Shown: positions 5,468-59,206, counted from the stretch's first letter. The stretch is DNA of 64,000 nt from Comamonadaceae bacterium (GCA_027485285.1 JAIXRH010000123.1:47632-111631), one strand, 5' to 3'. Program-made: numbers and translations. Notes: generated by a model not told the origin, from the letters alone.

Positions 5468-5744
5468 TTATAAACACCTAAATTGAGTCATCACAAGTTG
5501 CCGATTTTGTCCCATCGCTTGGCAATGGCGGGTATTGCACGATTTAAAGTGCTTCAAGTGTTGGGGGAACGCCAGTCGTATTTTTTCAAATGATTCGGCT
5601 GTCGCCGACCTTGGCTTGAACGGTGCCAATGTTTTTCTAAATAGCACCCCTTCATGTCGTCTGTGCGCTTACCAAGGTATTTGTGTGGTGTTCACCAAAA
5701 CCGCCCTGCGAGCGCCCCCGTCTATTTAAAGGTAAGCTGTTTCT
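5468..5744. other. Divergent intergenic region between the DedA and M16 peptidase genes
   Basis: These 277 bp hold no convincing gene. They presumably contain the two divergent promoters. A short stem, CGGC-GCCG, is present near 5598, but no strong operator or -10/-35 pair could be fixed. The peptidase ribosome-binding site (AAAGGTAAG) is rather distant from its ATG. Confidence 0.4.
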
Positions 5745-8459
5745 ATGAAAATTTTTACCAATTTCTGCATCGTCCTGTGTGTTGTTATGTCAGGCACTGT
5801 CTTTGCCGGGTCAGCCACCCCTCATCAAAAATTGATCGAAGAAAAGGCGGCAGGCATTGCCTCTTACAAGTTGGCAAACGGCTTCAAAATCATTCTTATT
5901 CCATATCCTTCAGCTGCCAATGCCCGCATTGAACTGATGGTGAGAACTGGCAGCAAACTTGAAGGTTATGGAGAGACAGGCATGGCGCACTTGCTTGAGC
6001 ACATGTTGTTCAAGGGGGCTGGTGAGCGTCAAAACATCAAAGATGATTTAACCAGGCTCGGTGCGCGTTACAACGGGACAACGTCGCAGGATCGAACAAA
6101 CTACTTTGAAACGGTAGACGCTGACCCGAAAAAGATTGACGAACTCTTAAAACTCGAAGCAGATCGTTTCATCCGTGCACGATTTACCGCGGCAGATTTA
6201 GCCAGTGAAATGACGGTGGTGCGGAATGAACTTGAGAACTCAGAGAAAGAACCCTCCCAACTTGTGCTCAGTGCGCTTGCCCGACATGGTTTTAACTGGC
6301 ACGGCTATTCGCGTTCAACCATTGGCGCGCGCAGCGATATCGAAGGCGCTTCTTTTGCAGCATTGCAAGCATTTCACAAAAAGCATTACCGTCCAGATAA
6401 CGCTGCGCTCATCGTCTCTGGTAACTTTGACTCGGCCAGAGTTTTGGCATTGGCTAGCAAGCTGTTTGCCGTCGCTCAAAACCCATCCACTGAAAAGCCA
6501 TCGAACTGGACTCTGGAGAGCCCGCAGGCAATGACCAACAAAACAGAGCTTGTTTCATCCGCTGGCACCACAGTTGTCGCAAGTGCTTGGAAACTGCCAG
6601 GCATGAAAGAGCGAGATGCGCATGCCCTTGCGCTTGCTGCAGCATCTATTTGCGATTCTGATTGGGGGAGTTTGCGAAAAGACATCGTGCTCGATCGCAA
6701 GTTGGCAGTGTCTGCCAATTGTTTCACTTGGCATCAGACCGACTATGGGCGGTTCATTGCGTTTGCACGCGCAGATCAAAAAGCTGATGCGCATGCGCTT
6801 TCCCATGAGGTGGTCAAACACATTCAAGAGGCTGCTGCGCGAGGTGTGTCAACGGCTCAACTCGAAAGAGCGCGTTTGTCTGAGCTCAACAGTTTTCAAA
6901 AATCCCTCGATTCGCATGAGGCTGTTGCTGGCTTGGTCTCTCGGTCTGAAGCCGCAGGTGATTGGCGTTTGTTTTTGTGGGAGCGTGATGTGGTGTCATC
7001 CGTCACGCTTGAAGAAGCCAATGACGCTTTAAAAAAGTGGGTGGTGTCGCTGAATAGAAATGATGTGGTTTTAAGGCACGTCGATAACGCTTCGCCTTTA
7101 GTGTTTCCTAAGCCGACTGACGCTGAATCAAGAGTCAAGGGGCAGGTGTGGGCGAACTTTATTTCTTCTGCCGATGCTGCGCCCACAAGTCTTTTGGCCA
7201 TCTCAACATCCACCGTGAAGTTCAATCTGAACAACGAAAGAGTCCAAGTTGCTTTGATCAAGAGGAAAACTCAGGGCGACAAGGTCTGGTTAGCGTTAGA
7301 AAACGACTATGGAAATCCTGCCCAACTGAAGCACAGAAAAGTCTCCTGTGATGCAGCTAGCGCCTTGATGGGCTTCGGCGGCAACGGATTGAGCCGTGAT
7401 GCGCTCAGTGCGCGCATGGAGGGGTTGCAAGCAATTTGGCAGATCAATCTCGCTGGTGTTTATCTTGAAGTCCCACGACAAAACTTCATGGAAGCATTCA
7501 ATGTTTTGATTTCAACATGGGCAAAGCCTCTGATGCCCGTCGTTGAGTTTGAGCGCTATAAAGCTTCCAGAATCGCCGCACTCGAGGCTGCCGTGACAGA
7601 TCCAATTCAGGTGTCAGCCAATGAGGTGCGATTGCGATTTGACAACTATCCCGAAGGTCACTGGGGTCAACCCAAGGCATTTTCTGAGTTGATGGCGCAG
7701 ACTCAAAACCTCGCTTATGAGGATGTGCTCAAGTGCAGCCAAGACTTCGCCAAACTGTCCCAGGTCCGAATGGGTGTGGTTGGAAACATCAATGCGGAAG
7801 TCATCCAGGACGCGTGGACCAAGGCTGATCTGGTCCATTCGGGGCCATCCACTTATGCGCGAGTGCCGACGCCTGTCGCACCTGTGAGCGTCGACACGAC
7901 CCCAATCCATGTCACGATCCCGGGAAAAACCAATGCAAGGGTGACGGGCACAACCGTTGTGCCTATCCACTCTAAGTCAGATGATTTTCCAGCGCTGCAA
8001 CTTGCTGTGTACGCTTTGGGTGGTAATTCAAGCAGTTTGATTTGGCTGCAGTTGCGTGAGACACAGGGGCTGGCTTACTCTTCAGGCATGCAGATTTCCC
8101 CATCTGCATTCGATGACCGCTCAACGATTCAGCTCTTTGCCACTGCCTCAAGTTCCAATGCTGACAAAGCGCTGGGTAGTCTTCAATCGGTGCTGATGAA
8201 GGTTCTTGCCGAGGGTTTCACACCTGAGCAGATTGACAGAGCCAAATCAGCTTGGATACAAAAACGCAAGGCCTCACTGGGGGATGAAAGGGGCTTTGCG
8301 TCAATTCTCGTCAACGCTTTGTACGACGGTCACGATTTTGAAGCGATGGAAGCGCTTGACCAAAAGATCAAAGCTGTCGATCACAAACTGGCCACTGCTG
8401 TTTTGAAAAAGTACGTGACCGAGTCCAACATTGTGTGGGCTGTAGGCAAAGGTCTTTGA
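5745..8459 (+). CDS. Exported M16-family zinc metallopeptidase (two-halves pitrilysin type)
   Basis: The 904-residue protein starts with a Sec signal peptide (FCIVLCVVMSGTVFAGSA, cleavage near residue 22), so it acts in the periplasm. The first half carries the inverted zinc motif HLLEH (His82, Glu85, His86) and the distal ligand Glu162 in RNELENSEKEP. The second half (from about residue 470) is the inactive M16 C-terminal lobe with ETQGLAYSSGMQI. The length fits tandem fused M16 peptidases of the PqqL/zinc-protease group, which cut small peptides. It is monocistronic, ending 19 bp before the convergent hydrolase gene. A 30-bp stretch near its 5' end recurs at 27960. Confidence 0.88.
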   Translation: MKIFTNFCIVLCVVMSGTVFAGSATPHQKLIEEKAAGIASYKLANGFKIILIPYPSAANARIELMVRTGSKLEGYGETGMAHLLEHMLFKGAGERQNIKDDLTRLGARYNGTTSQDRTNYFETVDADPKKIDELLKLEADRFIRARFTAADLASEMTVVRNELENSEKEPSQLVLSALARHGFNWHGYSRSTIGARSDIEGASFAALQAFHKKHYRPDNAALIVSGNFDSARVLALASKLFAVAQNPSTEKPSNWTLESPQAMTNKTELVSSAGTTVVASAWKLPGMKERDAHALALAAASICDSDWGSLRKDIVLDRKLAVSANCFTWHQTDYGRFIAFARADQKADAHALSHEVVKHIQEAAARGVSTAQLERARLSELNSFQKSLDSHEAVAGLVSRSEAAGDWRLFLWERDVVSSVTLEEANDALKKWVVSLNRNDVVLRHVDNASPLVFPKPTDAESRVKGQVWANFISSADAAPTSLLAISTSTVKFNLNNERVQVALIKRKTQGDKVWLALENDYGNPAQLKHRKVSCDAASALMGFGGNGLSRDALSARMEGLQAIWQINLAGVYLEVPRQNFMEAFNVLISTWAKPLMPVVEFERYKASRIAALEAAVTDPIQVSANEVRLRFDNYPEGHWGQPKAFSELMAQTQNLAYEDVLKCSQDFAKLSQVRMGVVGNINAEVIQDAWTKADLVHSGPSTYARVPTPVAPVSVDTTPIHVTIPGKTNARVTGTTVVPIHSKSDDFPALQLAVYALGGNSSSLIWLQLRETQGLAYSSGMQISPSAFDDRSTIQLFATASSSNADKALGSLQSVLMKVLAEGFTPEQIDRAKSAWIQKRKASLGDERGFASILVNALYDGHDFEAMEALDQKIKAVDHKLATAVLKKYVTESNIVWAVGKGL

Positions 8460-46753: not shown

Positions 46754-47299
46754 ATGCCAGTTATTTCAGTCACTTTGTTACCCGGCTATCCAACTGAGGT
46801 TCAAGAGCGGTTGGTTCAAAGAATTGCAATTGCCGCTCGCTCAGTCATTTCCGCTGCACCCGCCGGAACGACAGTCTTTGTCAACGAAGCCAGCACCTAT
46901 CAACGCGACAATCAGTCTTTTACGAAGGGCGGTCCATCGAGACCTGTTGCATCGGAATTGGTGCTTTCTTTTCTAAGCGCAATCCAAGAAAGAAATTTAG
47001 AAAAAGCAAAAAATTTTTTAGCACCTGATTTTTCTATGTGTTTTCCGACTGGTGTGCGGATGACCCAATTGCATGAATTGATTCAATGGGGACAGTCACG
47101 TTATAAAAAAATCGAAAAAATTTTTGAAACAATCGATGAATGCTGGACAGGTGAAGGCGCCGTCGTTTTTTGCTCTGGCACTTTAAGTGGAGTTTTTAAT
47201 GACGATCAACCATTTGAAAAAATACGATTTATAGATCGCTTTGAAGTGGTTGATGGACTTATCTTGAAGCAAGATGTTTGGAATGATCTACGACCTTAA
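46754..47299 (+). CDS. Fusion of a tautomerase-like domain and an NTF2-like (SnoaL) domain
   Basis: The 181-residue protein starts PVISVTLLPGYPTEVQERLV, the 4-oxalocrotonate tautomerase pattern in which Pro1 is the catalytic base after Met removal. That domain ends near residue 60. From about residue 65 (ASELVLSFLSAIQERNLEKA) to the end (FIDRFEVVDGLILKQDVWND) it has a SnoaL/ketosteroid-isomerase-like cone fold. The AAAAAGGA site supports the start. The gene is distinctly AT-rich compared with its neighbours, a sign of transfer. It stands alone between the glutarate genes and the aromatic cluster, so the substrate is unknown; an isomerase is likely. Confidence 0.65.
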   Translation: MPVISVTLLPGYPTEVQERLVQRIAIAARSVISAAPAGTTVFVNEASTYQRDNQSFTKGGPSRPVASELVLSFLSAIQERNLEKAKNFLAPDFSMCFPTGVRMTQLHELIQWGQSRYKKIEKIFETIDECWTGEGAVVFCSGTLSGVFNDDQPFEKIRFIDRFEVVDGLILKQDVWNDLRP

Positions 47300-47479: not shown

Positions 47480-48430
47480 TTAAGTGTGAGCTTTGACGAT
47501 GGTCGTGGTCAATGTTTTATCCAATGTTCCCTGGCTAAAAAGTTGATGGATCACCTGCCGAAGCCAAATGTGTGCTGAATCTTTGTGAAATCTCTGATGC
47601 CAGAAAAGATGTACATCGATGATGGGTGATTTCATGGGTGTAGGGACATAACGCACTTCACCGTGTTGAACGAAGAAATCAGCGAGATCTTTCGGGACCG
47701 TAGCAATCAAGTTGGACGTTTCGATGATTGGCAATAAGCTCATGAAGTGAGAGAGCTCCACGACAACGCGTCTTTTGATTTTTTTGCTTTGCAAAAATTG
47801 TTCGAATACATGCTCTCTGCCATCTGGCTTGACAACTGCATGTGATGCTTTTGCAAACTGCGCCAGTGTTAGTTTTTCTGCGACATCTGGATGGTTTTTT
47901 CGAATCAAACAAACATGCGAGCTGCTAATTAACTTCTGTTGAAAGAATCCTGCCTTGTGCAAATCTGGAAAGTAACCAATTGCCATCTCTGCACTGCCTG
48001 CCTCTAGTGCGTTGGCTGCCGCCTCTCTAGGCATGGCAAGGGTCTTCAGGCTAATGTGGGGAGATTTTTCAGCAAGCGTCGACAGCAATCGAGGCAAAAA
48101 ATTCACCTCAGCAATGTCTGGTGTCACCAACGTGAATATGCGATCGCTACGAGACGGATCAAAACTCTTCGGTTGCAGGATGTCGTTTTGGATAGTTTGG
48201 ACAACCGATCGAATGCTCAGGCTCAAAGCTTGCGCTTTGGGTGTGGGTGCCATGCCAGCACCTGTGCGAACAAATAATGGGTCGTCAAAGAGTGTCCTGA
48301 GTCTTGAAATGGCGGCACTCATCGCAGGCTGACTCAACTTGATTGCTTCGGCTGCCTTGGTGACATTCTGGTGTTTGAGCATGGCGTCAAACACGACCAA
48401 CAAATTCAAGTCTAAAGATCGAATATCCAT
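47480..48430 (-). CDS. LysR-family regulator of the aromatic operon
   Basis: The 316-residue protein has a NodD/LinR-type LysR N-terminus (DIRSLDLNLLVVFDAMLKHQ, then EAIKLSQPAMSAAISRLRTL) and an effector domain from about residue 90 (IFTLVTPDIAEVNFLPRLLS). It is divergent from the seven-gene operon starting at 48550 with a 119-bp gap, the normal arrangement for an activator of a catabolic operon. A 21-bp inverted repeat covers its own start codon, which suggests autorepression. Confidence 0.88.
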   Translation of the reverse strand: MDIRSLDLNLLVVFDAMLKHQNVTKAAEAIKLSQPAMSAAISRLRTLFDDPLFVRTGAGMAPTPKAQALSLSIRSVVQTIQNDILQPKSFDPSRSDRIFTLVTPDIAEVNFLPRLLSTLAEKSPHISLKTLAMPREAAANALEAGSAEMAIGYFPDLHKAGFFQQKLISSSHVCLIRKNHPDVAEKLTLAQFAKASHAVVKPDGREHVFEQFLQSKKIKRRVVVELSHFMSLLPIIETSNLIATVPKDLADFFVQHGEVRYVPTPMKSPIIDVHLFWHQRFHKDSAHIWLRQVIHQLFSQGTLDKTLTTTIVKAHT

Positions 48431-48442: not shown

Positions 48443-48549
48443 ATGTATTCAAATAATTATCTAGACGAATGGTTGCCTGATCCCTAGACTCGCTCACACA
48501 AAACACATCAAGCGCCTCAGAGCTTGATAAGTACACCGGAGACGAAGTC

Positions 48550-49602
48550 ATGCAACAGATGTATTGCGGCCAAAGCACAGTGATGCCTTGTTGCTGTGGT
48601 GTTGACGTTCATGCGCACGTCATTCCGGGAGAGTTTCCAAAATACCTAGGGGGTGCGACGCCCTCTGGATGGCCCTCGATGGCTCCGGCTGATGCTTGCC
48701 ATCGTCATGTCATGATTGATGGGAAGAACTACAGAACAGTGTCTGACAAGTGTTGGACCCCATCGCATCGATTGGCAGATTTTCAAGAGATGGGCTTGCA
48801 ACTGCAGGCCATTTCGCCCATGCCTGAGTTGCTGTCTTATTGGCTTTCTCCCGCCGATGGTTCCCAGTTGGTTAGATTCTTGAATGAACAAATTGCTTCC
48901 ATGGTCAACGAGTCCGGAGGCAAGATCGTGGGCCTTGGTGCCGTTCCATTACAAGATTTGACACTTGCCATCAAAGAGTTGCACTACATCAAGCACACCT
49001 TGGGTCTTTGCGGTGTGGAAGTAGGAAGCAACATCAATGGCGTCGTGATTGGAGACCCCAAGCTTGATCCATTTTTTGAAGCTTGCGTTGCGCTGGATAT
49101 GCCGGTGTTTGTGCATGCCTTGAGGCCTGTTGGCATGGATCGGTTGGTGGGGCCTGCACCCTTGCAACAGGTGTTGGCGTATCCCACCGATGTAGGTTTG
49201 GCTGCGGCATCGGTCTTGACTGGCAACCTGATGCATCGTTATCCTAAGTTGCGAATTGCATTCAGTCATGGTGGCGGAACTTTGGCCATGCTGTTGCCTC
49301 GGTTGCAACAAGCCATGTCTGTTTTTCCGGCCCTGCGGGAGAGTGTGCATTCATCTCCGTTCGAACAAGTCAGGGCGTTGTATTTCGATACCTTGGTTTT
49401 TGATACGCAGACCCTGCGTCATCTGGTTCATACATTTGGCTCGTCGCAGTTGATGATCGGGACCGATTACCCGTTTAACTTTCATGACAAACACCCTGTT
49501 GAGCGAATCAAAGAAGCTGGATTTGACGCCCAGGTCACCGAGCAATTGACGTCTACAAATGCCAAAAGATTTCTTGGTATTGAAAACATGAATTTGGAGT
49601 AA
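48550..49602 (+). CDS. Amidohydrolase-family decarboxylase (ACMSD-like), first copy
   Basis: The 350-residue protein has the metal-binding HxH at His21 and His23 (VDVHAHVIPGEFP), then PVFVHALRPVGMDRLVG, RIAFSHGGGTLAML and the catalytic Asp in MIGTDYPFNF. This set fits the amidohydrolase-2 group, which includes aminocarboxymuconate-semialdehyde decarboxylase and gamma-resorcylate decarboxylase. It is the first gene of the operon, with a GGAGA site, and lies 3 bp before the extradiol dioxygenase. It could decarboxylate an aromatic acid or a ring-cleavage product. Confidence 0.84.
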   Translation: MQQMYCGQSTVMPCCCGVDVHAHVIPGEFPKYLGGATPSGWPSMAPADACHRHVMIDGKNYRTVSDKCWTPSHRLADFQEMGLQLQAISPMPELLSYWLSPADGSQLVRFLNEQIASMVNESGGKIVGLGAVPLQDLTLAIKELHYIKHTLGLCGVEVGSNINGVVIGDPKLDPFFEACVALDMPVFVHALRPVGMDRLVGPAPLQQVLAYPTDVGLAAASVLTGNLMHRYPKLRIAFSHGGGTLAMLLPRLQQAMSVFPALRESVHSSPFEQVRALYFDTLVFDTQTLRHLVHTFGSSQLMIGTDYPFNFHDKHPVERIKEAGFDAQVTEQLTSTNAKRFLGIENMNLE

Positions 49603-49605
49603 AAC

Positions 49606-50508
49606 ATGACGCATTCATCTTCACTTGTAAGCGCTTTGCGCAGCGTTTCGCTCACCGTTCCTGATTTGGTGGCTGCTGAACATTTCTACACATCGATTTG
49701 GCATTTGGATGTAGTTGCCAAGACCGAGCAGGCCATTTATTTGCGCGGTACAGGGGCCGATCATCACTTGCTTGAACTGCATCAAGCGGATGGGTCGGCG
49801 AAGATTCGATGCGTCACTTTGCGTGTCCGAGATCTGTCTGCTTTGGAAAAAGTTGCAACCGCAGCGGTTGTTGCTGGAGGCAAAGTGCTCAAGCCCATTG
49901 CCGAAGTCACTGAGCCTGGGGGAGGGCAATCCGTGACGGTGATCGATCCCGACGGTCGCGTGTTTCAACTGGTCTTCGGGGATGCCATACATGCAGATGC
50001 CCATGAGGCGCAGGACAGACCCATTCGATTGGCCCATGCTGTGCTGAATAGTCATGATGTGGAATCCACCCGTACTTTCATGGAGTCTGTGCTTGATTTT
50101 TCGTTGTCTGACCGGACACGCATCATGGCCTTTATGCGTTGTAACAGTGATCATCACAGCATTGCGCTTGGTGATTCAGACAACAACGCACTTAACCATA
50201 TTGCATTTTTGATGCCTGATGTGGATTCGGTCATGCGAGGCGGGGGGCGTATGCGTGATGCGGGCTACGGCATTGAGTGGGGTCCCGGCCGTCATGGCCC
50301 AGGCGACAACGCTTTCAACTATTTTGTTGGCCCCTTTGATGTCGTCATTGAGTACACCGCCGAGGTTCAGCAGATCGATGACAGCTACAAATCAGGTCAG
50401 CCCACTGATTGGACCTGGCCCCCTGGTCGCGTTGATCAATGGGGCATTTCTGCGCCACCGAGTCCTCGACTCAAAGATGCGCAAAAAGCAGTTGTTTTTG
50501 TTTCTTAA
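49606..50508 (+). CDS. Type I extradiol ring-cleavage dioxygenase (VOC family)
   Basis: The 300-residue protein has two vicinal-oxygen-chelate domains. In the second the iron ligands are visible: His144 (IRLAHAVLNSHD), His198 (ALNHIAFLMPD) and Glu249 (FDVVIEYTAE). The signature around residues 223-250 (GIEWGPGRHGPGDNAFNYFV) is that of catechol 2,3-dioxygenase/biphenyl-diol dioxygenases. It opens a catechol next to one hydroxyl group. A flavin hydroxylase two genes downstream and an FAH hydrolase directly downstream complete a meta-cleavage logic. Confidence 0.88.
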   Translation: MTHSSSLVSALRSVSLTVPDLVAAEHFYTSIWHLDVVAKTEQAIYLRGTGADHHLLELHQADGSAKIRCVTLRVRDLSALEKVATAAVVAGGKVLKPIAEVTEPGGGQSVTVIDPDGRVFQLVFGDAIHADAHEAQDRPIRLAHAVLNSHDVESTRTFMESVLDFSLSDRTRIMAFMRCNSDHHSIALGDSDNNALNHIAFLMPDVDSVMRGGGRMRDAGYGIEWGPGRHGPGDNAFNYFVGPFDVVIEYTAEVQQIDDSYKSGQPTDWTWPPGRVDQWGISAPPSPRLKDAQKAVVFVS

Positions 50509-50518
50509 AGGATTCAGT

Positions 50519-51382
50519 ATGAAATTCACGACATTTCACAAAGATGGACAAGATCGATTTGGATTGATCGATGGCGATCACGTGATCGACTTCAACAAAG
50601 CGCAGCCCCAAGTCGATGCAGATCTTCGTTTGGCATTGAAGTCGGGTGTGGATTTGGCAGCTGCGGCTCAAAATGCGCTGAGTTCAAACGCTGAACGTTT
50701 GCCCATGGCGAGCTTGCAAATCTCAGCCCTCATTCCAGAACCTGGAAAGATCATTTGTTTGGGCTTGAATTATTTTGATCACGCGAAAGAGGGGGGGCGT
50801 GATAAACCTGAATACCCGTGGTTTTTTCTGCGCTCTGCCACGTCTTTGCTTGCACCTAATGAGGACGCCATTCTTCCGAAAGTCTCAGAGCGTTTGGATT
50901 ACGAAGCCGAGTTAGCTGTTGTGATTGGCAAGACCGTCAAGCATGCAACGATTGAAAACGCGTTGGACTGTGTGTTTGGCTACAGTTGTTTTAACGATAT
51001 TTCAGTCCGCGACTATCAAAAGAAAACGCCACAGTGGTCGATTGGTAAAAACTTTGACAAGACCGGTGGATTTGGCCCTGTGCTGGTCACAGCCGATGAG
51101 TTGCCCGCTGGTGCAGAGGGTTTATTGATTCAATCGCGTCTCAATGGCCAGGTGATGCAAAGCGCAAACACGCGCGACATGATTTGGGGTGTCGCTGAAA
51201 CCATCCAGTTGTTGACTGAATGTGTGACGCTTGAACCTGGTGACGTGATCGCTATGGGTACGCCCGCTGGCGTTGGTCAGGCGCGAACGCCTCCAGTTTG
51301 GATGAGGCACGATGACACCATTGAAATCGAAATTGAAAATATTGGCTTGCTTCGTAACAAGATCAAGGCTGAGGTCAACTGA
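50519..51382 (+). CDS. Fumarylacetoacetate hydrolase (FAH) family enzyme
   Basis: The ATG at 50519, with an AAAGGA site, gives 287 residues; a longer frame merely overlaps the dioxygenase gene. The core starts IPEPGKIICLGLNYFDHAKE. Metal ligands lie in RLDYEAELAVVIGK, with GYSCFNDISVRDYQKKTPQW and LEPGDVIAMGTPAGVGQARTP following. The family includes acylpyruvate hydrolases, 2-hydroxymuconate decarboxylases and hydratases. Following an extradiol dioxygenase, it probably hydrolyses or decarboxylates the ring-cleavage product. Confidence 0.88.
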   Translation: MKFTTFHKDGQDRFGLIDGDHVIDFNKAQPQVDADLRLALKSGVDLAAAAQNALSSNAERLPMASLQISALIPEPGKIICLGLNYFDHAKEGGRDKPEYPWFFLRSATSLLAPNEDAILPKVSERLDYEAELAVVIGKTVKHATIENALDCVFGYSCFNDISVRDYQKKTPQWSIGKNFDKTGGFGPVLVTADELPAGAEGLLIQSRLNGQVMQSANTRDMIWGVAETIQLLTECVTLEPGDVIAMGTPAGVGQARTPPVWMRHDDTIEIEIENIGLLRNKIKAEVN

Positions 51383-51384
51383 TC

Positions 51385-52974
51385 ATGGGTTCAGAGATCA
51401 GTCCAGAACTGTTCGACGTTGCCATTGTTGGATTTGGTCCAACTGGCGCTATCGCCGCGGGCTTGCTGGGTAAGCAAGGCATTCGAACCTTTGTGTGCGA
51501 GAAGTCGCATGAGGTCTATGACAAACCCCGTGCGATTGCCTTAGACCACGAGATTTCGCGTGTGTTTCAGCAAATGGGGGTGGCTAAAAAAATAAAGCCC
51601 TTCCTTGAACCCTTCACCGACTCGGTTTTTTACGGGGTGGACGGGCAGGTGATTAAACGCATGTCTACGGTGGCCGCTCCTTACCCGCTTTCACATACCC
51701 CATCCGTGGTGTTTACCCAACCGCCAGTCGAAGAGATTTTGCGAGACTACGCTGGCTCTCACCCGTCAGTCACCTGTCAACTGGGTATGACGGTGACGGA
51801 CTTGACGCAAGACGCGGACCTCGCTACCTTGACCCTTCATAACGAACAAGGCCAACCCTCACAGGTCAAGGCGCGTTACGTGATCGGGTGTGACGGGGCC
51901 AGCAGCGCAATTCGGTCTTTGGCAGGCATTCAGCTTGAAGACTTAGGATTTGATGAGCCTTGGCTTGTGGTGGATGTGCGTGTGAACGAACATGGACTGG
52001 CCAAATTGCCGATCACGAGCGTGCAGTATTGCAACCCTGAGCGGCCTTCGACGTATGTGATTGGCCCTGGCAACCACAGGCGCTGGGAGATCTCGATCAA
52101 TGAAGGTGAAGACCCCAAAGTGCTGGCTACGCCAGAGGGTACATGGAAACTCTTAGCGCCTTGGTTGACACCCGCGGATGGCGAACTGTGGCGTCAAGCC
52201 ACTTACCGCTTTCATGCCTTGGTCGCTGACCATTGGCGCAAAGGGCGCGTTTTTGTTGCTGGTGATGCTGCCCATCAGCAACCACCGTTTCTCGGTCAAG
52301 GCATGTGTCAAGGCGTGCGTGATGCCGTCAACCTGTGCTGGCGTTTGACGTCGGTGTTGCAAGAGGGGGCGGCAGAGACGCTGCTTGACTCATACGGCAC
52401 AGAGCGCAAAGCCCATGTGACGGAATTAACCACACGCATCAAGGGCATTGGCAAGATCATCACCGAACGCGATGTGGCGAAAGCCCGTGCGCGCGATGAA
52501 AAACTTTTGGCCGATGCTGGAGGTGTGGTTAAACCCATGCCACGCCAAGATGTTCAGCCCGCTTTGTCTGTTGGCTTGTTGGGTTCGGTGGTCCATCCAG
52601 CGAGAGGCACGATCTTTCCGCAACCGTTGCTGATGCTCAGTAATGGAGAGAAGGTGCGCATGGATGACATCCATCATGCGGGCTGGAAGATCGTGTTCAG
52701 CGCTACTGCAAACGATGAATTCGCACAAGCTGCAAAACACCACCATTTGCCAGCTCTGCTGTCCTTGAAACTGGGGACATTGGCTTTAACGGAGGCCGAG
52801 GGCGTCTTGCAGCTGTGGTTTGAAAAGCATGGCATACAGGCAGCCATTGTTCGTCCAGATCATTACATCTATGGTGTTTGTCTAACACCACAAGATGTTT
52901 CGCATCAACTCGGTTTGTTGAAATTGGTTGAAAGCAAGTCATCCCTCATCACTGGAGATACACATGGAACGTAG
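51385..52974 (+). CDS. FAD-dependent aromatic hydroxylase (MhpA-like)
   Basis: The 529-residue protein is a class A flavoprotein monooxygenase. It has the dinucleotide motif VAIVGFGPTGAIAAGLLGKQ at residues 11-30, the NADPH/FAD motif GCDGASSAIR and GDAAHQQPPFLGQGMCQGVR from residue 293. The PPFLGQGM form and the length are typical of 3-(3-hydroxyphenyl)propionate hydroxylases and relatives. It adds an ortho hydroxyl to a phenol to make the catechol for the dioxygenase. The exact phenolic substrate is not known. Confidence 0.88.
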   Translation: MGSEISPELFDVAIVGFGPTGAIAAGLLGKQGIRTFVCEKSHEVYDKPRAIALDHEISRVFQQMGVAKKIKPFLEPFTDSVFYGVDGQVIKRMSTVAAPYPLSHTPSVVFTQPPVEEILRDYAGSHPSVTCQLGMTVTDLTQDADLATLTLHNEQGQPSQVKARYVIGCDGASSAIRSLAGIQLEDLGFDEPWLVVDVRVNEHGLAKLPITSVQYCNPERPSTYVIGPGNHRRWEISINEGEDPKVLATPEGTWKLLAPWLTPADGELWRQATYRFHALVADHWRKGRVFVAGDAAHQQPPFLGQGMCQGVRDAVNLCWRLTSVLQEGAAETLLDSYGTERKAHVTELTTRIKGIGKIITERDVAKARARDEKLLADAGGVVKPMPRQDVQPALSVGLLGSVVHPARGTIFPQPLLMLSNGEKVRMDDIHHAGWKIVFSATANDEFAQAAKHHHLPALLSLKLGTLALTEAEGVLQLWFEKHGIQAAIVRPDHYIYGVCLTPQDVSHQLGLLKLVESKSSLITGDTHGT

Positions 52975-53941
52975 ACAATTTATTGAAATGGTGGCAGTCG
53001 GTGCTGTTTCTGTTGGCACCCCTGCATGGGCACAGAACAGCGTTTGGCCCGACAAAGCTATCAAGTTTATTTTGTCGCAGCCCGCTGGTTCGGGGCCTGA
53101 CAATGTGGCGCGCTTGTTAGGAGACCGTTTAGGCACTGCATTGGGGCAGCCCGTGGTGATTGACAACAAGCCTGGCGGTCAAAACGTGATTGGGGCCCAA
53201 GCCGCAGCCCGATCGGCACCTGATGGCTACACATTTTATTTTGCAACAACTGCCGCTCTGATAACCAACACCTTGCTGTTCAAGCAGTTGGCCTACGATG
53301 TGCAAAAAGACTTTGTGCCTGTGGCTTTCATTGCGCGCAGCCCGTTTGCCATTTTGGTGGATGCCAATTCACCCATTCAAAGCATTGACGATTTGATTGC
53401 GAAATCCAAAGCGTCCAACGGTCAGTTTTCGATCGGTAACGAAGGCCCGCGGACCTTCAGCGGCATGATCGCGCGTTTATTCAACGCCAGGTCCAAAGCA
53501 GCCGCCAATCTGGTTCCCTATGCCAACGTGGGCGTGGGCTCACAGAACTTAATGGGCGGCCATGTGGATGCCCTGGTGGCTGATTTGGCCTCCACCGCGC
53601 AGTTGGCTAAACAGGGCAAGCTGCGTGTCATCGCCACAACAGCAGCCAAGCGTGTGCCTGGGTGGGAAAACGTGCCCGCTCTGTCTGAAAAACTGGGCGT
53701 CTTCGACATGGTGGGTTGGTTTGCGATTGTGGCGCCCAGGGGGACGCCAGCGCAGGCCATCACCAAGCTCAACCGGGAGGTAAATGTGCTGTTGGCGGAT
53801 AAAGAGCTCTCTGGGCGTATTGCCAGCATTGGGCCTTTGACGGATGCCACGATGTCTGAAGAGGATGTACGCAAGTTCTTATTAGCCGAGCTCGCACGCT
53901 GGACCGAGGTGACCAAAGAAATCGGTGTGTTGCCCGAATAA
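52964..53941 (+). CDS. Bug/TctC-family periplasmic binding protein
   Basis: The ATG at 52964 overlaps the hydroxylase end by 11 bp and has a GGAG site. The 325-residue protein has a twin-arginine-like signal (MERRQFIEMVAVGAVSVGTP, then AWA). Family motifs are VIDNKPGGQNVIGAQAAARS, APDGYTFYFATTA and GWFAIVAPRGTPAQAI. Such proteins feed tripartite tricarboxylate transporters (TctAB) and bind carboxylates, often aromatic. No TctAB genes are in the window. Confidence 0.9.
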   Translation: MERRQFIEMVAVGAVSVGTPAWAQNSVWPDKAIKFILSQPAGSGPDNVARLLGDRLGTALGQPVVIDNKPGGQNVIGAQAAARSAPDGYTFYFATTAALITNTLLFKQLAYDVQKDFVPVAFIARSPFAILVDANSPIQSIDDLIAKSKASNGQFSIGNEGPRTFSGMIARLFNARSKAAANLVPYANVGVGSQNLMGGHVDALVADLASTAQLAKQGKLRVIATTAAKRVPGWENVPALSEKLGVFDMVGWFAIVAPRGTPAQAITKLNREVNVLLADKELSGRIASIGPLTDATMSEEDVRKFLLAELARWTEVTKEIGVLPE

Positions 53942-53959
53942 CGTTCATTTCAGGAGTCA

Positions 53960-54934
53960 ATGATGCAGCATATGTATAAAGTTTTGCTCAGCCTTTTGCT
54001 CGGTGTGCAATCTGTGTCTGTTTTTGCGCAAGTGGCCGACTTCCCCTCAAAGCCCATCCGGGTCTATGTGGGGCAGGGGGCTGGCGGCGGCATGGACACA
54101 CAGGCACGTATCGTGGCTCAACGCTTGAGTGAAAAACTCGGGCAGGCGGTGGTGGTGGAAAACAAAGTTGGCGCTGGCGGCATCATCGCGACCGAATTTG
54201 TGGCCCGCGCAGCACCGGACGGTTATAGCTTGTTGATGGCACCCATCGGCAATATGGTCTTCACCCCCATTCTGAATCCCAAGTTGAAGTATTCGCCCAC
54301 CAAAGACTTTGTCCCCGTGTCCTTGGTGGCCACGTTCCCTTTGGTGTTGGTGGTCAATTCCAAGTCCAAAATTAATACGGTGGCTGATCTGGTGGCCTTC
54401 ATGAAAACCAATCCTGAGAAGTCCAACTATGGCGGGTCAGGCGCGGCTTTTCAGTTCGCTAACGAATTGTTTAAATTACAGACAGGTGCACCTGGCGAGT
54501 TCATTCAATACAAAAGCATGAGCGAAACCATCACCGCTTTGTTATCCGGTGACTTGGTGATGTCCATGGTCGACACAGGACCTGCCACCTCGCACATCAA
54601 TTCAGGCAGTTTGCGTGCCTTGGCTGTGACGTCGCCTCAGCGATTGGCCAGCATGCCGCAGGTGCCTACGATGACGGAGTTGGGCTTTCGCGACATTGAG
54701 TTTCGTTATTGGAGTGGGTTCTTTGCGCCTGCAGGCACGCCTAAGCCAGTGATTAAAAAGTTGGAGGCTGACATGAATCAAATTTTGAAGCAGCCCGATG
54801 TCATTGCACAAATGGCGACTAATCAGGTTGCGGCGACTGGCAGCACCTCAGAGGAACTCAGCAAGCTGGTCGCTACCGATCTGGTGCGTTGGGGTGCCGT
54901 CGCGGACAGCGCCAAGATGCCTAAGCAAGATTGA
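53960..54934 (+). CDS. Bug/TctC-family periplasmic binding protein (second in operon)
   Basis: The 324-residue protein has a Sec signal (VLLSLLLGVQSVSVFAQVA) and the motifs YVGQGAGGGMDTQARIVAQR, VENKVGAGGIIATEFVARAA, PDGYSLLMAPIG and the late SGFFAPAGTPKPVIKKL. It lies 18 bp after the preceding family member, and the two are clearly diverged, so they may recognise different aromatic acids. A shared unlinked TctAB membrane component is presumed. Confidence 0.9.
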   Translation: MMQHMYKVLLSLLLGVQSVSVFAQVADFPSKPIRVYVGQGAGGGMDTQARIVAQRLSEKLGQAVVVENKVGAGGIIATEFVARAAPDGYSLLMAPIGNMVFTPILNPKLKYSPTKDFVPVSLVATFPLVLVVNSKSKINTVADLVAFMKTNPEKSNYGGSGAAFQFANELFKLQTGAPGEFIQYKSMSETITALLSGDLVMSMVDTGPATSHINSGSLRALAVTSPQRLASMPQVPTMTELGFRDIEFRYWSGFFAPAGTPKPVIKKLEADMNQILKQPDVIAQMATNQVAATGSTSEELSKLVATDLVRWGAVADSAKMPKQD

Positions 54935-54948
54935 TCGGTAGAAAAGCC

Positions 54949-55926
54949 ATGCATTCAAAAAGTCCGGTGATTGATTTCCATGTTCATGCCTTGGAGCCCA
55001 CGGTCTTTCAAAGTTCGACCAACAAAACAGTCTTTACTGGGTTTGGTGCGAATCCGGTCACCGAGCCCAGGCCGGGTGCCAAGGCCTTGATTGACCGCAT
55101 GTTTGATGCGAAAACCATCATCGAGGACATGGATGTGCGAGGTATCGATAGATCGGTGGTGACCTCCAGCACGGTGTTGCAAGGTACCTCTTGGGCAGAA
55201 GCTCAATTGGATTTGTCGTTGTGCCAGCGTTGCAATGACCAAGCGGCTGCTTGGGTGACAGCGCATCCCACACGCATGGTCGGCAGCATGGTGTTGCCGC
55301 TGCAAGATGTGGGTCTGGCGTTGCAAGAGTTACGACGCGCACACGAGCAGTTGGGCTTGCAAGTCGTCAATGCCTCGTCGAGCTACAAAGGGATCTACTT
55401 GGGTGATGCACAGTTCGATGCTTTTTGGGATGAAGTCGCGGGAAGAGGCCTGACCGTTTGGGTACATCCGGAGGGGGTGGAAGACCCTTGGTTTCAAAGT
55501 TACGGCTTATGGAATTCCTTGGGTCAGTCAATTGAAGAAACCAAATGCATGGCTTCGCTGATTTACAGCGGCGTGATGGCCCGGTATGACAGCTTGAAAG
55601 TGGTGATGGCACATGGTGGTGGTTATTTTCCGCACTACCTTGGACGAATTGATCGCAATGCCGTGAACCGTCCGGATACCGTTAAAAACTTGGATGGCAA
55701 GACGCCGCGTGACTTTTTGAAGAGCTTCTACTACGACACCTGCGTGTATGACCCGCGCGTGCTGGAAGCACTGATCTCGCTGGTGGGGACAGAGCGATTG
55801 GTCATGGGCAGCGACTACCCCGTAGGCGAGAAAACCCCCGTACAGTGGCTTCAGCAGGCGGGGTTAGAAGGTGAGGCCTTGGCCGCAGTTGCGGGTGGGA
55901 ATGCCGCCAATTTATTGGGTCTCTAA
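54949..55926 (+). CDS. Amidohydrolase-family decarboxylase (ACMSD-like), second copy
   Basis: The ATG at 54949 gives 325 residues; the upstream TTG is less likely. HxH ligands are His11 and His13 (VIDFHVHALEPTVF). LTVWVHPEGVEDPWF, VVMAHGGGYFPHYLGRID and the catalytic Asp in VMGSDYPVGEKTPVQW follow. It belongs to the same amidohydrolase-2 group as the gene at 48550 but is only distantly similar. Two decarboxylase-type genes in one operon suggest two carboxyl-removing or hydrolytic steps. A 7-bp stem follows its stop codon. Confidence 0.84.
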   Translation: MHSKSPVIDFHVHALEPTVFQSSTNKTVFTGFGANPVTEPRPGAKALIDRMFDAKTIIEDMDVRGIDRSVVTSSTVLQGTSWAEAQLDLSLCQRCNDQAAAWVTAHPTRMVGSMVLPLQDVGLALQELRRAHEQLGLQVVNASSSYKGIYLGDAQFDAFWDEVAGRGLTVWVHPEGVEDPWFQSYGLWNSLGQSIEETKCMASLIYSGVMARYDSLKVVMAHGGGYFPHYLGRIDRNAVNRPDTVKNLDGKTPRDFLKSFYYDTCVYDPRVLEALISLVGTERLVMGSDYPVGEKTPVQWLQQAGLEGEALAAVAGGNAANLLGL

Positions 55927-56882: not shown

Positions 56883-57740
56883 TTAATTTGGAGAACCACT
56901 CTTTTTTAAAACGCTAGTCATGAAATCACTCAACACGACGGCAAGTGTTTCTTCATGTGGTTCCCAGTCCGAGAACGGAAGCAATGCAATATCTTGGTCC
57001 TCGATCGGCAATTTATACAAAATGCTATTGGGGATTAAATTAGCAGCAGCGATGCCATTGGCTGAAGCGTGAGTATTGTCGTTTCCTGGAACTACGATGG
57101 TGGGCACTCGAATTGCGCGCAACACATCGTCTTCCATTCCAAGTACCGGTTTGCGTGGTCCTTTCAAGAAAATGGACAACCAGTGCTCCATGACTCGGAT
57201 GTATTCTTTGGGGTCCATTGCCATGAGTCGAGGCAAATTTGAGGGATTTGCTTGTATTCGCTCAAGGTACTGCTCGGTTTCACAAACAGCTTTCATACCA
57301 CCTTGCTGGGCGGCGCGAATAAATTGCCCGTAATACATTTCGGGTAGACGACCCGCTGCAAAGTCGCCGCCAGTCACGCGCATCAACATCAGTCCTTTGA
57401 CTTTTTCTGGGTGTCGTTGGTTGTAGAGCATTGACAACCGAGCACCAGAGGAAGTGCCCCCAATGAATGCTGAGGTTGCACCAAGTTCATCAAGCAGTAT
57501 GTCCAAGTCATCAGCCCAAATCTCTTCCTCGCCATCTTGTCCAGCAATCAGAACATCTGATGCGCCTGTGTTACGGCGGTCATGAAGTAAAACTTGAAAC
57601 CCCTTGGCGGCAATTTTCTCTGCAAATCCAATGAACTCATTGAATCCACGACGTCCCCCTGTGATCAGGACTAGCCATGGGCCTGTTTCGCCAAAAACGC
57701 GGTAATGAATGTTGACATCGCGGATCTTGATAAGTGGCAT
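56883..57740 (-). CDS. Cytosolic alpha/beta hydrolase
   Basis: The 285-residue protein has the oxyanion-hole strand LVLITGGRRGFNEFIGFAEK, the nucleophile elbow IGGTSSGARLS (Ser near residue 95) and the acid-containing strand RVPTIVVPGNDNTHASANGI. The final His is less clear (DWEPHEETLAVVL). No signal peptide is present, so it works in the cytoplasm. It may hydrolyse an ester, lactone or a carbon-carbon bond of a cleavage product. It is 21 bp after the cupin gene and is probably co-transcribed. Confidence 0.84.
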   Translation of the reverse strand: MPLIKIRDVNIHYRVFGETGPWLVLITGGRRGFNEFIGFAEKIAAKGFQVLLHDRRNTGASDVLIAGQDGEEEIWADDLDILLDELGATSAFIGGTSSGARLSMLYNQRHPEKVKGLMLMRVTGGDFAAGRLPEMYYGQFIRAAQQGGMKAVCETEQYLERIQANPSNLPRLMAMDPKEYIRVMEHWLSIFLKGPRKPVLGMEDDVLRAIRVPTIVVPGNDNTHASANGIAAANLIPNSILYKLPIEDQDIALLPFSDWEPHEETLAVVLSDFMTSVLKKSGSPN

Positions 57741-57761
57741 GTTGTTCTCTTTGTATATCGA

Positions 57762-58247
57762 TTAACCAAAGGCCGTTAAAACCTTACCGCCAGCTTCAAC
57801 TGGGTTCGAGTGGATAAGAATGACAGCCAATACGCAAGACTCAGTGCCTCTGTTGATCCAGTTGTGAACTGTGCCGCGTTGCACCATGACATCCCCTGCT
57901 TTGAGGTGAACTTCATTGCCAGCCTCAAGCTCCATGTCAATCTCTCCCGACATCACCACGATGTAATCAATCGTGTCTGTCCGGTGAACGCGCTGTTCAA
58001 CCCCAGGTTTAAATTCAATGATTCGAAAAACGCTACCGTTTTCGATCATTGTGAATTTGCCCTCACGCTTGCCATCATCGTTCTGTCCTGAATTGTTAGC
58101 AGGTGCAGAGTCTGTCGTCCAAACATTGCAAATCTGCGCGCCAGGTCGTCCTTCTCTGAAGTGGTTGCAAGTCTCGTCAATTTTTACAATCGCTTTACCT
58201 TCAGCGTCATGACCTGTGATGACGCGGCGAATCGTGGGAGTAGTCAT
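57762..58247 (-). CDS. Cupin-domain protein (possible small-molecule dioxygenase or isomerase)
   Basis: The ATG at 58247 gives 161 residues; a GTG three codons earlier overlaps the preceding stop codon. The cupin barrel has VEQRVHRTDTIDYIVVMSGE and VHLKAGDVMVQRGTVHNWIN, with His residues at the first motif and at TVHNW. These could bind a metal ion. Family relatives include oxidoreductases and isomerases of organic acids. It is coupled to the Bug protein gene upstream, so it may act on the same substrate. Confidence 0.8.
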   Translation of the reverse strand: MTTPTIRRVITGHDAEGKAIVKIDETCNHFREGRPGAQICNVWTTDSAPANNSGQNDDGKREGKFTMIENGSVFRIIEFKPGVEQRVHRTDTIDYIVVMSGEIDMELEAGNEVHLKAGDVMVQRGTVHNWINRGTESCVLAVILIHSNPVEAGGKVLTAFG

Positions 58248-58252
58248 GTTTA

Positions 58253-59206
58253 TCACTCAGGTTTGATGTTGAGTTGCTTGATGAGTTTTGCTTTCTCGTC
58301 GAAGTCAGCTCGTAACCTCTTATCGAAATCTCGTCGACCCAAAAAAGAGACCCTCTGGTTTAAACGTGAGGCTGCAGTGCGAAAACCTTCTGAGGATGTC
58401 ACTTCAGCGCAGGTTTTTTCCAAGCTGGCCAACACCGGCTCAGGTGTACCTCGGGGAGCGAACATGCCGTTTAAGCCGGGTACGCCTGCAGAGTGTCCGA
58501 GTTCAGCCATTGTTGGGACATCCGGGTAGGCGAAGTGGCGCTGTTCCGCAAACACTGCCAGTGGGCGAACGCCTTTGCCAGCCATGCCTGAGATTGATGC
58601 AGCTGAAAAAGTGATTTCGTTGCTAATTAATTGAGGCAAGATCTGCGGCTCGCCCCTGAACGGCACGTGAACTGCGTCAAGCCCAGCGGTTGCCAACCAA
58701 GCTGATGCTGAAAGATGCGGAACCGATCCAACACCAGTTGTCCCCCAACTGAGTTTGCCGGGCTGCGATTTGCCTGCTGCCACCAATTCTTGATAGGTTT
58801 TATAAGGTGATGCAGATCCAACAAACAGAGCCATCACGTTTTCAAAGCTCTGACAAACAGGGACAAATGAATCGTATGTGTATGCAACGCTTTTGATGAT
58901 GTGAGGAGCAATCGTCAATGGGGTATTGGGCGAGATCGCTACCGTATAACCATCCGGTTTTGCAGCAGCCAAAGCAGCAAAACCAATTGTTGCAGCAGCA
59001 CCTTCACGGTTGACGATTGGAAAGGCTTGACCTGTAACTTTTGAAAACTCAGATGCCAAAGCTCTTGCCATGAGATCAACACCATGTCCTGCTTGAAATG
59101 GCACGATCACAGTCACTGCGCGTGACGGATAAGCATCCTGTGAAAGAGCTGAAAAATTGATAAAACCGACGCATGCAGTCATAAATGTGGTTAGCAGTTT
59201 CGTCAT
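58253..59206 (-). CDS. Bug/TctC-family periplasmic binding protein (third)
   Basis: The 317-residue protein has a Sec signal (LLTTFMTACVGFINFSALSQ) and the family motifs VTVIVPFQAGHGVDLMARAL, IVNREGAAATIGFAALAAAK, PDGYTVAISPNTPL and LNGMFAPRGTPEPVLASL. It should bind an organic acid for a tripartite tricarboxylate transporter. It is the first gene of its operon and is divergent from a fourth family member at 59616. Confidence 0.9.
   Translation of the reverse strand: MTKLLTTFMTACVGFINFSALSQDAYPSRAVTVIVPFQAGHGVDLMARALASEFSKVTGQAFPIVNREGAAATIGFAALAAAKPDGYTVAISPNTPLTIAPHIIKSVAYTYDSFVPVCQSFENVMALFVGSASPYKTYQELVAAGKSQPGKLSWGTTGVGSVPHLSASAWLATAGLDAVHVPFRGEPQILPQLISNEITFSAASISGMAGKGVRPLAVFAEQRHFAYPDVPTMAELGHSAGVPGLNGMFAPRGTPEPVLASLEKTCAEVTSSEGFRTAASRLNQRVSFLGRRDFDKRLRADFDEKAKLIKQLNIKPE

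Follow-up and report, generated by a model that had tools for sequence, protein, structure and literature searches.

The seven-gene operon that we resolve in a 64,000-nucleotide stretch of Comamonadaceae DNA (hereafter, the window) is an extended local version of an operon that is widespread in soil and freshwater Proteobacteria. On the basis of ORF and domain calls, all seven genes are intact and lie on the plus strand (Table 1), and they comprise the full set named in the initial annotation: an MhpA-like hydroxylase (FMO), an extradiol dioxygenase (EDO), a FAH-family hydrolase (FAH), two amidohydrolase-2 proteins (AH2a and AH2b), and two Bug proteins (Bug1 and Bug2). From AH2a to AH2b, the successive intergenic distances are 3, 10, 2, −11, 18, and −4 bp, such that the widest gap is 18 bp and two pairs overlap. 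The earlier ORFs, starts, and domains are correct with the exception of two starts: that of FAH is the ATG at 50519, the longer ORF from 50219 starting too early, and that of Bug1 is probably at 52964. In pairwise comparison, AH2a and AH2b are 29% identical, which bears out their claimed divergence, and Bug1 and Bug2 are 31% identical; thus, neither pair is a recent duplicate.

Table 1. Features of the operon and its divergent regulator, with window coordinates and the supporting match or observation.
Feature	Coordinates	Strand	Basis
LysR-type regulator	47480..48430	-	Pfam PF00126/PF03466; orthologue in many loci, likewise divergent from AH2a
Putative LysR operator and promoter	48446..48490		Block TATTC..GAAT (48446-48470) and CCTAGACT (48483-48490)
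AH2a, ACMSD-like amidohydrolase-2	48550..49602	+	PDB best match ACMSD, 186.7 bits
EDO, two-domain type I (VOC) extradiol dioxygenase	49606..50508	+	PDB 3b59, 158.7 bits
FAH-family hydrolase, acylpyruvase type (predicted)	50519..51382	+	PF01557, E 3.7e-65
FMO, MhpA-like FAD monooxygenase (aromatic ortho-hydroxylase)	51385..52974	+	NF004829, 490 bits
Bug1, TctC-type periplasmic solute receptor	~52964..53941	+	PF03401
Bug2, TctC-type receptor paired with AH2b	53960..54934	+	PF03401
AH2b, second amidohydrolase-2, rare lineage-specific addition	54931..55926	+	PF04909

The host genome (2.35 Mb) contains twelve amidohydrolase-2 matches, a high number for such a small genome. Beyond the operon, the minus strand at 56883-59206 encodes an alpha/beta hydrolase (56883-57740), a cupin, and a third Bug protein. 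Upstream, the plus strand at 46754-47299 encodes a small protein combining a SnoaL-like domain with an N-terminus resembling 4-oxalocrotonate tautomerase with Pro-2, adjoining acyl-CoA dehydrogenase and CaiB-like genes; it is possibly a tautomerase-SnoaL fusion, with the Pfam Tautomerase match (E 0.18) falling below cut-off.

When named genomes are scanned with an AH2a alignment, 80 loci are recovered at a threshold of at least 60% identity, spanning Comamonadaceae, Oxalobacteraceae, Azoarcus, Paraburkholderia, Azospirillum, Nitrospirillum, Tardiphaga, Bosea, Pseudomonas, and Pokkaliibacter. EDO lies immediately 3′ of AH2a in 68 of the 71 named-genome loci with room for it, an adjacency far above chance. 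In the majority of the loci that are fully covered, with at least 5.5 kb downstream of AH2a (44/62), the order is AH2a-EDO-FAH-FMO with or without Bug1, which is how the genes are usually arranged in Beta-, Alpha-, and Gammaproteobacteria; AH2a-EDO-FMO-FAH is the second order. The four core genes are also found on Massilia, Rhizobium, and Agrobacterium plasmids, accompanied by transport genes of the MFS or TRAP type and a LysR or GntR regulator. In these plasmid loci and in that of Falsirhodobacter, FAH and FMO occur in other orders, and the Falsirhodobacter plasmid has AH2a divergent from EDO, FAH, and FMO. Within the order of the host, EDO is detected at E <1e-40 in 14 of 399 genomes. The conserved order and the conserved catalytic residues described below place the window operon in a conserved operon family. 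The gene order, which the initial annotation had taken to be unusual, is kept for the four-gene core in dozens of genomes and plasmids, and only the Bug2-AH2b tail is rare. Its related statement that no operon with this order has been described stands insofar as we find no description in open-licence papers, the only literature covered and thus weak evidence of absence, but the core order itself is common.

Two features of the homologous loci vary. No FAH is found nearby in L047, L053, L054, L056, L059, and L115, which counts against a pathway dependent on FAH. An HbpS-like protein (PF03928) is encoded near the core in 51 examined loci, mostly directly upstream of AH2a, and is missing at the corresponding place in the window operon. 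The closest copy in the host genome is on contig C114, adjoining another FAH gene: there, the HbpS-like gene lies directly upstream of the FAH gene (L149, 1049-2185), in the surroundings of a partial FAD monooxygenase gene and a carboxymuconolactone-decarboxylase-like gene. This locus is a second aromatic cluster in which the HbpS gene is retained.

The intergenic block between the LysR gene and AH2a can be aligned between the window and 14 related loci, with shared …TATnC…GAAT and CCTAGACT-like elements, and in L060 and L090, it contains perfect dyads of the form ATTTATCC-N10-GGATAAAT. This block resembles a probable LysR operator with a −10 element. Separate promoters inside the operon, which the initial annotation had named as evidence against a single unit, are unsupported by a crude sigma-70 scan, in which two promoter-like sites fall within the operon and a third lies past its end (a regional total of 3 vs 7.8 in shuffles), a scan too crude for exclusion. 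Overall, promoter and terminator scans of the region give no excess over chance.

In an alignment with human ACMSD, AH2a retains the metal ligands (H21, H23, H189, and D306) and the catalytic H240, while R62 and R251 are the counterparts of Arg51/Arg239 in the Pseudomonas fluorescens enzyme and Arg47/Arg235 in the human enzyme; all seven residues are present in 85/85 homologues. In ACMSD, these two arginines bind both carboxylates of the ring-cleavage product ACMS, and arginine mutants are inactive (PMC11650718). The predicted model of AH2a (pLDDT 86) likewise has ACMSD as its best structural match (E 3e-28 vs 2e-16 or worse for non-ACMSD folds), and in both sequence and predicted fold, AH2a is well nearer to ACMSD than to gamma-resorcylate, 5-carboxyvanillate, or other aromatic decarboxylases. 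It differs from the ACMSD of the kynurenine and 2-nitrobenzoate (NbaD) pathways in two respects: Trp194 (human Trp191), a residue in contact with the carboxylate of the substrate, aligns with Gln207, so that the substrate would not be ACMS itself, and its partner is a VOC enzyme rather than a cupin-type 3-hydroxyanthranilate dioxygenase. AH2a is therefore predicted to work like ACMSD without being classed as ACMSD itself.

A published precedent for such a pairing is the opa system of Pseudomonas sp. PTH10, in which o-phthalate is degraded via meta-cleavage of 2,3-dihydroxybenzoate by OpaC, a 2,3-dihydroxybenzoate 3,4-dioxygenase, followed by the ACMSD-like CHMS decarboxylase OpaD (PMC6362003). 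Because ACMSD is the closest relative in sequence and fold, both arginines are invariant, and the OpaC/OpaD pairing is published, we place AH2a after EDO, as the proposed decarboxylase of its ring-cleavage product. DhbB of P. reinekei, considered as a further relative of ACMSD, is a class II aldolase instead, and OpaD is the ACMSD-like enzyme (PMC6362003).

The other core enzymes each fall within a known family. In EDO, the type I residues H144, H183-H184, H198, H230, Y239, and E249 are at least 97% conserved (n = 80); on the basis of motif and family, they comprise two His and one Glu as metal ligands together with the catalytic His/Tyr. The NCBIfam HpaD and catechol-2,3-dioxygenase profiles are below cut-off, and the next match after PDB 3b59 is homoprotocatechuate dioxygenase. 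FMO exceeds the MhpA-subfamily cut-off of 390 bits and has conserved FAD motifs (n = 74), with no substrate-specific NCBIfam equivalog being reached. In FAH, the motif N84-Y-x-x-H88-x-x-E91 (NYxxHxxE) and E129/E131/D160 are at least 97% conserved (n = 69), and this His/Glu dyad with acidic metal ligands points to the acylpyruvase type. An ORF and domain search of the operon yields no gene for an alpha/beta hydrolase, hydratase, aldolase, acylating dehydrogenase, or ferredoxin, confirming the absence of an MhpC-type hydrolase, MhpD-F, and ferredoxin noted earlier. The 4-hydroxy-2-oxovalerate aldolase TIGR03217 is also not above cut-off anywhere in the host genome (a draft of 132 contigs, 98% complete), and FAH thus probably yields pyruvate directly. 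A CoA-acylating (methyl)malonate-semialdehyde dehydrogenase is above cut-off in the same genome.

Together, we propose that the operon is under LysR control and serves the catabolism of an aromatic carboxylic acid with a meta-hydroxyl group, probably of plant-phenolic origin, with Bug2-AH2b being peripheral, a reading to which we give an even chance. The acid would be captured by Bug1 or another uptake system and hydroxylated by FMO beside its existing hydroxyl group; the resulting diol would be of the 2,3-dihydroxybenzoate type and carry an additional hydroxyl. Cleavage of the ring beside the diol by EDO would then give a 3-carboxy-2-hydroxymuconate-6-semialdehyde-type product, from which AH2a would remove the 3-carboxyl by zinc chemistry of the ACMSD/OpaD type, and FAH would hydrolyze the resulting acylpyruvate to pyruvate and a short acid, such as malonate semialdehyde. 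With acylpyruvate hydrolysis by FAH, the MhpC-F route would be unneeded. Gene content, order, conservation, and co-occurrence, as well as the predicted fold and active-site residues of AH2a, are what we observe; all of the individual reactions, their sequence, and the identity of the substrate we infer from homology and context. On chemical grounds, an acylpyruvate product would require an extra ring hydroxyl next to the lost carboxyl, and a 2,6-dihydroxybenzoate-type substrate would fit all steps, giving pyruvate and malonate semialdehyde.

Genes neighboring the homologous loci suggest plant phenolics and no single compound. A lignostilbene-type (stilbene-cleaving) dioxygenase, matching lignostilbene dioxygenase at ~372 bits, is found near five loci from separate lineages, and other neighbors include aldehyde dehydrogenases (11), esterases (11), aromatic-acid MFS transporters (7), glucosidases of GH1 (7) and GH3 (2), and maleylacetoacetate-isomerase-like GSTs (3). 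A stilbene dioxygenase is not found in the host genome, which counts against the proposed reading. Furthermore, stilbene-derived 3,5-dihydroxybenzoate would give no acylpyruvate by exactly the steps proposed above, and thus, the substrate and step order may differ.

In one such alternative order, AH2a would be the first or second enzyme and act before the ring is opened. Its substrate would be a resorcylate, orsellinate, or trihydroxybenzoate, decarboxylated as by gamma-resorcylate decarboxylase; FMO would give a trihydroxybenzene, EDO a 2,4,6-trioxo acid, and FAH pyruvate and a beta-keto acid, which parallels the classical orcinol pathway. In that pathway of Pseudomonas putida, to which we liken the window operon by description, hydroxylation and extradiol cleavage are followed by the hydrolysis of a trioxo acid, with no lower pathway; no ACMSD-like gene is known from it. 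Exactly four enzymes complete the chemistry of this scheme without a lower pathway, and the scheme agrees with the hydrolase motif of FAH, the stilbene-dioxygenase, glucosidase, and esterase neighbors, the presence of AH2a in a lichen-derived strain, and the intermediates of a Burkholderia symbiont, which include 2,4,6-trioxoheptanoate and trihydroxytoluene. However, AH2a resembles ACMSD much more closely than it does the gamma-resorcylate or 5-carboxyvanillate decarboxylases, and it retains both arginines for a two-carboxylate substrate, which argues for decarboxylation after ring cleavage, and we consider action on the intact ring unlikely.

When compared to known meta-cleavage systems, the operon is a variant of the opa, mhp, and fde/ifc designs that has the full definition of none, with each enzyme coming from a known family. 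The likeness to opa, which we draw by description, lies in a type I extradiol dioxygenase and an ACMSD-like amidohydrolase in one operon, and the corresponding adjacency in the 68/71 loci is of the opa type. Unlike opa, where entry is through a Rieske dioxygenase plus a diol dehydrogenase and opaE-K supply a full lower pathway, the window operon has entry by an MhpA-like FMO and exit by FAH, and opaE-K are absent from it. With mhp (3-hydroxyphenylpropionate), it shares an MhpA-subfamily FMO followed by extradiol cleavage, whereas MhpC, D, E, and F are missing, the dioxygenase is VOC rather than LigB-type, and amidohydrolases and FAH are added; given also the genome-wide result for TIGR03217, this is not an mhp-type operon.

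The combination of an FAD monooxygenase and a VOC extradiol dioxygenase is likewise found in fde (naringenin, Herbaspirillum) and ifc (isoflavone, Variovorax), the nearest described A-ring pathways of this kind. By analogy, FMO and EDO could hydroxylate and cleave a flavonoid or isoflavone A ring, with AH2a and FAH processing the fragments, and one Massilia plasmid does have an FAD oxidoreductase-VOC-Rieske set adjoining the core. Yet fde uses the Rieske protein FdeD and ifc the cupins IfcD1/D2, neither type of partner is present in the window operon, and the fde and ifc descriptions covered here report no ACMSD-like and FAH pair. The FdeC-like VOC protein of the plasmid aligns with part of EDO at only ~35% identity and lies near only two loci, and the small-acid uptake genes of the family (Bug, TRAP, and aromatic-acid MFS) suggest a small substrate. 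We therefore reject the fde naringenin operon as the identity of the core, and A-ring degradation in general is very improbable. The plasmid trio itself, in Massilia putida (L038, 15594-18048), lies just beyond the core and is fde-like in composition.

Bug1 is found 3′ of FMO or FAH in about half of the full loci and belongs to the usual operon in Comamonadaceae, whereas for Bug2-AH2b, the same placement behind the core is seen only at L046 (82-90% identity) and, without FAH, at L059. At the latter (5620-6625), the AH2b homologue is split into two adjacent matches in different frames, which suggests a frameshift or assembly error. In L053 and L056, AH2b is on the opposite strand. Within the order of the host, AH2b occurs in 5/399 genomes, and EDO is present in every one of the five (hypergeometric p 2e-8 when counted by genome and 1e-4 by genus, with no correction for descent in either case). 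In the remaining four genomes, AH2b is on another contig than EDO, with a Bug gene (46-49% identical) just upstream in three. AH2b is thus tied to the pathway by co-occurrence, yet it is a separable module. On plasmids, the best AH2b match is 34% identical over most of its length, and thus, no close relative is found there.

The metal ligands of AH2b (H17, H19, H179, H228, and D295) are kept in full-length homologues, and the position of ACMSD Arg51 is occupied by K51 in the window and L046 and by Q or another residue in further homologues; its model, built from only four usable sequences, has a pLDDT of 45. Hence, the earlier description of both amidohydrolases as ACMSD-like fits AH2a in sequence, predicted fold, and active site, but AH2b is without one of the two essential arginines. 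The accompanying suggestion of a carboxylated phenolic that loses one or two carboxyl groups fares similarly: one loss is supported by AH2a and the OpaC/OpaD precedent, and the second is unproven given the missing arginine equivalent. An alternative role for AH2b is that of a LigY-type C–C hydrolase or a hydratase after ring cleavage, able to replace FAH, as LigY and LigJ are also amidohydrolase-2 enzymes and AH2b is linked in L053, L056, and L059, where FAH is absent nearby. Since the match of AH2b to LigY or LigJ (38 bits) is far weaker than to ACMSD (126 bits) or 5-carboxyvanillate decarboxylase (96 bits), and since the window and L046, as well as four genomes from another family, have FAH and AH2b together, we regard this role as quite unlikely. 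AH2b as a straight FAH replacement is not required, several genomes having both. We instead favor, with weak support, Bug2-AH2b as an added peripheral module that would import and decarboxylate a more carboxylated precursor, from which AH2b probably supplies the pathway.

Present annotations of the core genes read amidohydrolase, VOC protein, FAH protein, and 3-hydroxyphenylpropionate hydroxylase; for FMO, this final label is probably misleading. As the core occurs in many cultured strains, including Variovorax, Massilia, Duganella, Azospirillum, Nitrospirillum, Bosea, Pseudomonas, and on Rhizobium plasmids, one growth and enzyme study could assign function to a widespread gene block. Our tentative proposal, held at less than even confidence, is that this block encodes a widespread, hitherto undescribed four-enzyme route (FMO, EDO, AH2a, and FAH) from a plant hydroxybenzoate to pyruvate and a short acid without the classic lower meta pathway, onto which an ACMSD-related AH2b of new specificity was grafted in freshwater Comamonadaceae. 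A functional assignment of the core would extend the known amidohydrolase-2 specificities and provide a short design for meta-cleavage.
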